This document shows, in pieces, positions 23,881-28,243 of a stretch of 42,331 nucleotides of DNA. How positions within the stretch are numbered: the stretch's first letter is position 1; each line of letters begins with the position of its first letter. The stretch is from Kofleriaceae bacterium (GTDB taxonomy: Bacteria; Myxococcota_A; Polyangia; Haliangiales; Haliangiaceae). The translations under genes were made by a program, and so were the position numbers. Where the stretch lies: contig JAGPCO010000064.1 in the NCBI GenBank assembly GCA_018058095.1, positions 1 to 42,331 on the forward strand, written 5' to 3'. Under the pieces are notes generated by a model. It made no database searches, was not told the origin of the DNA, and was given only the letters and a program-made list of their open reading frames with translations.

Positions 23881-26367
23881 TCAGCGCACGCCGGAGTCGA
23901 AGCCCTTCTTGCGATCGGCCGGGTCGGTCGGCAACAGGGTCCACAGCTGGCGCACGATCTTCTTGAGGGCCTCGGTGTCGTCGCGCTCGAGCGCGCCGCG
24001 CCCGGCCGCGACCAGGTCCTGGGCCCGGCGCAGGTCGCTGGCGCTGTGGGCGTCGCCGGCGGCGTCCTCGAAGTACCAGCGCCAGGCCTCGGGCGAGCGC
24101 TGGTGGGCGGCGCTGGCCAGCCGGCGCATCAGGCGCAGCTGGCGCTCGAGCTCGGCCGGGTCGCGCCGGCGCCGGGCCTCGTCGACCGCGGCCATCACCT
24201 CGTCGAGCAGGCCGCGCTCGGCGTCGGTGCCGTGCAGGCTGATGGCCGACGACGCGCCGATGGCGACCTGGCGCGCCTCGGCCTCGAGTTCGGGCCAGCG
24301 GTGGGTCAGCTCGGCCTCGGCCAGGGCGGCGTCGACGTCGAGCAGGGCCCGGCGCGCCTTCTGCGCCGCGTCGGCGTCGCCGCCGTGGCTGGCGTCGATG
24401 TCGCGCTCGGCCTCGGCCAGCCGGACCTCGAGCTGGTCGAGCCGCTCGATGGCCTTGATCTGGCCGTGGCGAAAGGCGTCGGTGCGGACCGTGGCCAGGT
24501 GCCGGCGCAGGTCGGTCAGGGCGGCGTCGAGCGCGGCCGGCGCGGCCTCGGGCACCAGCAGGTGCACGACCTGCTCGAACACCTGGTCGATGGCCGGGAT
24601 GAGCGCGCGCGCGGTCATGCGGCCGCCGCGATCGAGCTCGATCGTGACCTCGACCGCCGAGCCGGTCGGTACGGTGGCCCGCAGCGGCGCGCCGCCCGGG
24701 CCGGGCACCTCGAGCACGCCGACCAGGCGGCACAGGTGAGCGGCGGCGAACTCGCCCTGGACGATGGGGATGCGCAGCACCGACTGCTCGGCGCCGGCGG
24801 CCACGGTCTCGACGGTGGTGTGGGTGTACGACCGGCGCGCCGGCAGCGGCGTGCCGCGCTCGACGTAGACCTGGACGTGGTTGCCGGCGGTGGCCACCCC
24901 GACCGAACGCGCCAGCGGCGGATCGCCGATGGTCAGGCCCTGGACGATGGTCAGGCTGCTCGGGCTGACCGCGACGGCGGCGCCGGCGGCGGTGCGGGCG
25001 TCGATGGTGAAGGTCGAGGCCCGGCGCGGCGGCAGGCTGGCGGTGGTGATGAACGTGCCATCGGCGCCGACCGGGCAGGGTGGTCCCTGCCAGCCGCCGT
25101 CGGCCCGCACCAGCTGCACCGTGGCCGCCGCCTCGGCCGCGCCCGGCTGGTGGGCGACGAAGCGGCCGAGCACGTGCGGCGTGAGGTCGGCCGACACCGG
25201 CGGGTACTGCAGCCACAACGCGGCGCCGGCGGCGGCCGCGCCCGCGGTCGACGTGCTGGCGGCGCGCCCGTCGAGGCCGGCGGTGGCGGCGTACAGCGCC
25301 GCGCCCTGGGCCACCAGCGTCATCGGGTCGAGGCCCTCGGCCAGCGCCGCCTCGAGCCGGCTGGCGACGCGAGCCCGCACCATCGGCATCACCGTCGGCC
25401 CGCCGACGAGCACGACCCGGGCCAGCCGGCCGGGCGCCAGGCCGTGGCTGGTCAGGAGGCGCAGGCACACCTCGAGGCTCCGCTCGACCAGCGGCGCACA
25501 CGCCCGCTCGACGTCGGCCCGGGTCAGCTCGAGGTCGACCTCGAGCGCGGCGCCGTCGACGGTGAGCGGCTGCGCCAGCGTGAGCGGGGCCCGGTCCTGG
25601 CGCGACAGCTCGATCTTGGCGTCCTCGACCGCGCCGCGCAGCGTGCGCAGCGCGTCGGCGTGGCCGGGCTCGCGCCGGTCGAGGCGCGGGCCGCCGCCGG
25701 CGGCGAGCTGGGCCAGCACCAGCTCGGTGATGGCCCAGTCGAAGTCGCGCCCGCCCAGGAAGTTGTCGCCGTCGTGGCCGATGACCCGGAGCAGGCCGTC
25801 GCGGGTCTCGAGCAGCGAGGCGTCGAAGGTGCCGCCGCCGAGGTCGTACACCAGCCAGGCCCCGGCGTCGTCGTCGGCGCGCCAGCCGGCGGCCAGGGCC
25901 GAGGCGATCGGCTCCTGCAGCAGCTCGACCCGGTCGAACCCGGCCAGGCGGGCCGCCTCCGACGTGGCCGCGCTCTGCGGCAGCTCGAACAGCGCCGGCA
26001 CCGAGATGACGGCGCGGGTCAGGTCGACCCCGAGCTGGTCGCGCGCGTCCTGGCGCAGCGCGCGCAGCACCTCAGCCGACAGCTGCTCGGGCGTGCGCGT
26101 CACCCCGGCGGCCGGGAACGACACGGCCCGGCCGGTGCCGATGAGGCGCTTGAACTCGCTCGCGGTGTTGGCCGGGTCGCTGTCGAGGAAGCGGCGGGCC
26201 CGCGCCCCGACCGTGGTGCGGCCGGCGCGGTCGATGCGCACCACCGACGGCGTGATCGTGCCGCCGCTGCCGTTGCGGATGACCGTGACCCGCTCGCCGT
26301 CGAACACCGCGGCGGCGGAGTTGCTGGTGCCGAGGTCGAAGCCGGCGTACAGGGGCGCGTCGGGCAT
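23881..26367 (-). CDS. Hsp70-family protein with long C-terminal helical region
   Basis: 828 residues, longer than DnaK (about 640). The N-terminal actin-like ATPase domain has phosphate-1 FDLGTSNSAAAV (10-21), phosphate-2 DLGGGTFDASLL and adenosine motif VVLVGGPTVMPMVRARV. After about 370 residues there is an atypical substrate region that has low similarity to DnaK, with beta-rich segments, then a Glu/Arg/Ala-rich alpha-helical tail (about 600-828). It probably binds ATP and a client specific to this cluster (J-like, DUF3060 and membrane proteins). The 5' end of the gene (26095-26435) is duplicated at 27903-28243. Confidence 0.93.
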   Translation of the reverse strand: MPDAPLYAGFDLGTSNSAAAVFDGERVTVIRNGSGGTITPSVVRIDRAGRTTVGARARRFLDSDPANTASEFKRLIGTGRAVSFPAAGVTRTPEQLSAEVLRALRQDARDQLGVDLTRAVISVPALFELPQSAATSEAARLAGFDRVELLQEPIASALAAGWRADDDAGAWLVYDLGGGTFDASLLETRDGLLRVIGHDGDNFLGGRDFDWAITELVLAQLAAGGGPRLDRREPGHADALRTLRGAVEDAKIELSRQDRAPLTLAQPLTVDGAALEVDLELTRADVERACAPLVERSLEVCLRLLTSHGLAPGRLARVVLVGGPTVMPMVRARVASRLEAALAEGLDPMTLVAQGAALYAATAGLDGRAASTSTAGAAAAGAALWLQYPPVSADLTPHVLGRFVAHQPGAAEAAATVQLVRADGGWQGPPCPVGADGTFITTASLPPRRASTFTIDARTAAGAAVAVSPSSLTIVQGLTIGDPPLARSVGVATAGNHVQVYVERGTPLPARRSYTHTTVETVAAGAEQSVLRIPIVQGEFAAAHLCRLVGVLEVPGPGGAPLRATVPTGSAVEVTIELDRGGRMTARALIPAIDQVFEQVVHLLVPEAAPAALDAALTDLRRHLATVRTDAFRHGQIKAIERLDQLEVRLAEAERDIDASHGGDADAAQKARRALLDVDAALAEAELTHRWPELEAEARQVAIGASSAISLHGTDAERGLLDEVMAAVDEARRRRDPAELERQLRLMRRLASAAHQRSPEAWRWYFEDAAGDAHSASDLRRAQDLVAAGRGALERDDTEALKKIVRQLWTLLPTDPADRKKGFDSGVR

Positions 26368-26435
26368 GGCGCCGAAGGTAGCAGGCCGGCCGGGGCGGGG
26401 CAGGGGCGCTGCCAGCCGTCGCCGCGCGAGGCCGC
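26095..26435. repeat. 341-bp direct repeat, left copy (5' end of the intact Hsp70 gene)
   Basis: It covers the first 91 or so codons of the Hsp70 gene and 68 bp upstream. It matches 27903-28243 over its full 341 bp with about six base differences. The left copy ends exactly at the stop codon of the lipoprotein gene at 26435. Confidence 0.95.
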
Positions 26436-27875: not shown

Positions 27876-28175
27876 TCACGTCTTCACGACCTGATCCTCC
27901 GGGCGCGTCACCCCGGCGGCCGGGAACGACACGGCCCGGCCGGTGCCGATGAGCCGCTTGAACTCGCTGGCGGTGTTGGCCGGGTCGCTGTCGAGGAAGC
28001 GGCGGGCCCGCGCCCCGACCGTGGTGCGGCCGGCGCGGTCGATGCGCACCACCGACGGCGTGATGGTGCCGCCGCTGCCGTTGCGGATGACCGTGACCCG
28101 TTCGCCGTCGAACACCGCGGCGGCGGAGTTGCTGGTGCCGAGGTCGAAGCCGGCGTACAGGGGCGCGTCGGGCAT
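27876..28175 (-). pseudogene. Truncated Hsp70 N-terminal fragment
   Basis: An ATG at 28175 begins the same protein as the intact Hsp70 (MPDAPLYAGFDLGTSNSAAA...) for 91 residues to ...AAGVTR, then diverges to PEDQVVKT and stops, giving 99 residues. The phosphate-1 loop is present but the rest of the ATPase domain is missing, so it cannot function as a chaperone. If translated it would be a short dominant fragment. It arises from the right copy of the 341-bp repeat. Confidence 0.9.
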
Positions 28176-28243
28176 GGCGCCGAAGGTAGCAGGCCGGCCG
28201 GGGCGGGGCAGGGGCGGCGCCAGCCGTCGCCGCGCGAGGCCGC
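27903..28243. repeat. 341-bp direct repeat, right copy
   Basis: Same sequence and orientation as 26095-26435 with about six substitutions (for example at the CGTGATGGTG versus CGTGATCGTG position). The two copies flank 1467 bp of unique DNA carrying only the lipoprotein gene and its leader. Confidence 0.95.

Follow-up and report, generated by a model that had tools for sequence, protein, structure and literature searches.

The 5' end of an Hsp70-family gene occurs twice in the stretch of DNA analysed here (the window; 42,331 nucleotides, one whole contig of a high-GC genome of 7.57 Mb in 227 contigs), and this locus is best read as the product of an ordinary and fairly recent rearrangement involving a repeat linked to REP-associated tyrosine transposases (RAYT). 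More specifically, we give about an even chance to a mobile-element rearrangement scar at the Hsp70 gene start, produced by a tandem duplication and a subsequent insertion led by a dispersed repeat, termed M.

Layout of the Hsp70 locus

The two copies of the duplicated segment (copy 1, 26095-26435; copy 2, 27903-28243; both assigned to the minus strand) were colinear in the alignment with an offset of 1808 and identical at 335 of 341 positions. Each consists of a leader of 68 bp plus the first 91 codons of the 828-aa Hsp70-family gene, in agreement with the earlier note, which had described a 341-bp direct duplication with about six differences. The mismatches are located at positions 26146, 26161, 26257, 26293, 26409 and 26410. 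Of these, the four in coding sequence are all silent third-position changes, and the longest exact stretches measure 115 bp and 95 bp. When a copy was used as query against the whole genome, the second copy was recovered with an E-value of 1e-168 and the next-best place reached only 63 bits; thus, the duplication is not due to chance.

All genes of the locus, i.e. the gene starting at 28253, the Hsp70 fragment, a putative lipoprotein gene and the intact Hsp70 gene, are carried by the minus strand. The intact gene (23881-26367) encodes a DnaK-like ATPase with a divergent C-terminus, in which the Hsp70 ATPase domain is present (Pfam HSP70, E 2e-79), and full-length orthologues of about 70% identity were found in most genomes of the same genus. 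Since this downstream copy retains its own 68-bp leader, Hsp70 is preserved, and the upstream copy is a fragment of 99 codons. The truncated Hsp70 peptide postulated in the earlier note accordingly exists as an open reading frame (27876-28175, minus strand; 91 Hsp70 codons plus 8 codons from repeat M), but there is no sign of its use.

The spacer between the copies (26436-27902, 1467 bp) contains one complete gene, as had been claimed, but it is not a single-gene cassette, since the dispersed repeat M is also located inside. The gene (26435-27676, minus strand) codes for a putative lipoprotein of 413 aa with a signal peptide ending in ALGVAC, and its GTG start is preceded by a good ribosome-binding site (GGAAGG). 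Its TAG stop codon uses base 26435, confirming that the copy junction falls at the lipoprotein stop, and is separated from the Hsp70 start by 67 bp. The lipoprotein is an orphan present in single copy: neither Pfam nor NCBIfam has a match to it, its own genome lacks a second copy, 56 relatives lack a homologue, the search of 318 class genomes yielded just two marginal hits (E 0.004), and genome_contigs, plasmids and phages yielded none. A single-sequence structure model was uninformative (pLDDT 33). The case for an atypical, lower-GC gene is weak, as its GC content of 70% places it at the 23rd percentile among 172 ORFs called in this genome and GC3 is lower in the two genes upstream of the copy.

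The gene adjoining copy 2 (28253-28831, minus strand, 192 aa) belongs to no curated family and has diverged homologues elsewhere in relatives of the family; the gene starting at 29123 has none. The latter (29123-29815) encodes a putative lipoprotein with a DMP19 domain (Pfam E 2e-19) that is absent from 29 other genomes of the family and, together with 26435-28831, makes up lineage-specific DNA upstream of Hsp70. Further upstream, a 561-aa ORF (29770-31455) with weak multihaem cytochrome c matches is divergent from these genes.

Among 18 relatives whose Hsp70 start was readable, not one has a second copy of it nearby; in 20 relatives, nothing that lies upstream of Hsp70 in the window was conserved at the corresponding position; and neither the duplication nor the cargo was found in any relative, the nearest Hsp70 being about 70% identical. 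As no relative is close enough to show an empty site and the upstream DNA is not conserved, the empty allele is not reconstructable, and the order of events given below is one that we infer. At all four codons with silent differences the relatives are mixed and do not polarise these differences.

Repeat M and its transposase family

Repeat M was first exposed by a longer lipoprotein ORF reaching to 27856, which reads through M and of which just the first ~50 residues matched elsewhere, at 15 places. In the window, M occupies 27721-27902 on the minus strand; it is a dispersed repeat of 172-182 bp and the leader of RAYT/IS200-like elements of this genome. DNA folding predicts a terminal hairpin (27874-27896, minus strand; GATCA.GTC.....GAC.TGATC), and comparison of the copies revealed an outer end that is fixed at this hairpin and an inner extent that is variable. 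The inner end, GAATGAGGCGAAAGGTTG, has no hairpin, so that GATCA..TGATC is found at one end only; no GTAG tag stands beside the palindrome, and CGTC lies inside the tip rather than forming a clearly unpaired tag. A DNA search of the genome detected ~16 near-complete copies and many of the outer tip. At E 1e-8 this genome has 21 matches and the other 15 of its genus have none, and the tip TGATCASGTCNTCACGACC occurred 52 times with at most one mismatch, compared to 0 occurrences of the reversed control. The exact M pattern had no match in genome_contigs. About a dozen sites were inspected, and in these the placement of M is mostly extragenic; some copies without a transposase stand alone beside ordinary genes (CotH, SpoU, URO-D).

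Eight M copies run into one common gene start and three of these into a complete gene (L041, L044, L050), coding for proteins of 350-386 aa that match Y1_Tnp (Pfam) at about its cut-off. The only protein scanned against NCBIfam (P0006) matched REP_Tyr_transpos with E 6e-18, below the curated cut-off, and an NHWH (HUH-type) motif is visible in the transposase translation. The genome holds seven full or partial copies of this protein that are 95-100% identical, relatives elsewhere in the phylum sample, in other families, reach only 37-45%, and no close RAYT relatives were found in viral contigs. This REP-associated tyrosine transposase family is a recent, genome-specific expansion. The seven transposase loci (L095, L102, L105, L107-L110) have leaders of ~172 bp.

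The outer end of M and its flank are recurrently duplicated in tandem at other M sites, over 84 bp at 98.8% identity in contig C135 and over 89 bp at 100% in contig C33, and short units of 8-11 nt of flank plus a truncated tip are repeated two to four times at many M sites. Such stuttered ends (L075:8435-8766, L082:7900-8000, L078, L079, L081, L083, L039 and L049) consist of 8-11 nt of flank and the M hairpin end cut at varying depth, in two to four tandem units before the full element, the start of the flank being constant and the extent of the element variable. At none of the other ~16 M sites does a long duplicated flank enclose a passenger gene; thus, the case in the window is not a general design. 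Two further regions, 1-2808 of L042 (contig C184) and 700-1580 of L066 (contig C169), contain several M tips at gene-sized spacing and have the look of short cassettes in an array. The possibility that hairpin tips spaced by genes are integron attC sites was rejected, as the neighbours of M encode Y1 transposases and the tips do not follow the attC core rules.

Origin of the arrangement

At one end of the spacer, the outer end of M lies at 27902 and directly abuts copy 2 of Hsp70, which begins at codon 91. At the other end, the 20 unique bases that immediately precede copy 1 (26436-26455, minus strand; CGCACGGCCGAGCAGCCGTA) match Hsp70 codons 91-97 (CGCACGCCCGAGCAGCTGTC) at 17 of 20 positions and in the same frame, which is exactly the leftover expected of an insertion at codon 91. 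At this specified junction the score was reached by 9 of 12066 placements (position-specific null, p about 7e-4), and in a free local search the similarity was not remarkable. The patch is probably a remnant of an interrupted Hsp70 copy, but it could be due to chance, being short and having three mismatches compared to six in the 341 bp elsewhere. The patch and the M end together suggest that the insertion took place at codon 91 of an upstream copy that once reached approximately codon 97.

According to the history that we favour, the 5' end of Hsp70 (from about -69 to codon 97, ~361 bp) would first have been duplicated in tandem, and a segment led by the M hairpin end and carrying the orphan lipoprotein gene would then have been inserted at codon 91 of the redundant upstream copy. 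Hsp70 sequence would then remain on both sides of the insert, with 341 bp ahead of it and about 20 bp behind it, the latter adjoining the intact gene. IS200/IS605-type Y1 enzymes act on single strands, and we infer that a transposase acting in this way may have moved the segment. The lipoprotein stop may have been made at the duplication join or happen to fall there, which would explain the coincidence at 26435. Both the presence of M at ~16-21 sites in this genome, with its absence (E 1e-8) from the 15 other genomes of the genus, and the recurrent tandem duplications of its outer end plus flank at other sites support this scar at the Hsp70 gene start. That the segment was recently inserted, as the earlier note had it, is plausible, given that M ends at one copy boundary and the Hsp70-like patch lies at the other, and that the lipoprotein has but the two faint hits in the class. 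The M-lipoprotein unit has no second copy and no recognisable right end, and transport of passengers by M is not established; the lone M copies beside CotH, SpoU and URO-D count against it. A 341-bp target-site duplication by a simple transposon as the sole cause was rejected, since other M sites lack comparable duplications flanking the whole element and have only hairpin-end tandems.

The main rival, which we consider unlikely, is a merodiploid: an Hsp70 gene of another strain, interrupted by M and the lipoprotein gene, would have entered by homologous recombination on one side and been joined illegitimately on the other, at -69, placing the interrupted 5' end of the donor upstream of the intact gene of the recipient. 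The remnant of an interrupted gene and an illegitimate join at 26435/26436 are both present, the divergence of 1.8% with exclusively silent coding differences is strain-like, and transformation is known to yield intact and interrupted copies (PMC3784515). However, four silent changes would also fit drift after a local duplication, and no donor allele is known.

It is distinctly improbable, in our estimate, that the lipoprotein-Hsp70 pair is native and that the Hsp70 fragment and the gene upstream of it are the newcomers, joined at the M end by deletion or duplication. The operon-like spacing of lipoprotein stop and Hsp70 start, the unremarkable composition of the lipoprotein gene and the position of its stop exactly at the copy boundary would all speak for this reading, but no relative has the lipoprotein in spite of the conservation of Hsp70, the Hsp70-like 20-nt patch would be left to chance, and at least as many steps would be needed.

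An artefact of assembly or binning might be suspected in a metagenome-type assembly whose window is a single 42-kb contig among 227; however, a single contig holds both copies, each with its own flanks and its own allele, and no k-mer is common to the join at 26435 and the other side by which an assembler might have bridged them. We regard this explanation as very improbable. A functional, phase-variable cassette that is excised and re-inserted via the 341-bp repeats is hardly credible: the exact stretches of 115 and 95 bp can recombine, as any 341-bp direct repeat can, and a deletion would restore a clean locus, but no recombinase or recombination site was found in the unit (nothing apart from the orphan lipoprotein and M is encoded in the spacer), nor other cargo, an excised allele, a second copy or a relative with the arrangement. 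A segment once lost between direct repeats is not efficiently restored. Of the ideas in the earlier note, the potential reversibility survives only in the generic sense that any such repeat can recombine, phase variation finds no support, and neither does a gene-capture hotspot. In the scar favoured above, a later loss of the lipoprotein gene would be an ordinary RecA deletion.

Comparison with known systems and implications

Of the known systems, REPIN/REP sequences with their RAYT (TnpA_REP) transposases (PMC3116915, PMC2817692, PMC8266576) come closest, as M is likewise short, dispersed (~16-21 copies, 52 tip sites) and equipped with a terminal hairpin, and as genes for a dedicated Y1 transposase follow directly after M in the same genome. 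In addition, Pseudomonas REP doublets form tandem repeats that include flanking sequence (PMC3116915), and tandem clusters with flanking DNA are also seen at M sites. In contrast to a REPIN doublet, M is 172-182 bp long, has a hairpin at one end, and contains neither an inverted REP doublet nor a GTAG tag; its neighbours in the window are a passenger gene and a flank duplication of 341 bp. Tandem duplication or merodiploidy in which one of the copies is interrupted (PMC3784515) likewise places intact and interrupted copies side by side, but here only 341 bp are duplicated and the join at one end is non-homologous. Integrons and other site-specific gene cassettes share the single gene between repeats; unlike these, the locus has no integrase and no recombination site, and what is repeated here is part of a conserved chaperone gene.

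A wider idea, which we regard as speculative and quite improbable, is that RAYT-linked repeats of this lineage act from one end, the hairpin being fixed and the far end variable, and that they capture neighbouring genes such as the orphan lipoprotein gene and duplicate long stretches of target flank on insertion. If such one-ended capture were true, the usually 'domesticated' RAYT-type transposases would gain a role in gene gain. As things stand, the finding is a local rearrangement in one genome, in which a transposase-linked repeat can help an orphan gene to settle beside a conserved chaperone gene while leaving the latter intact.
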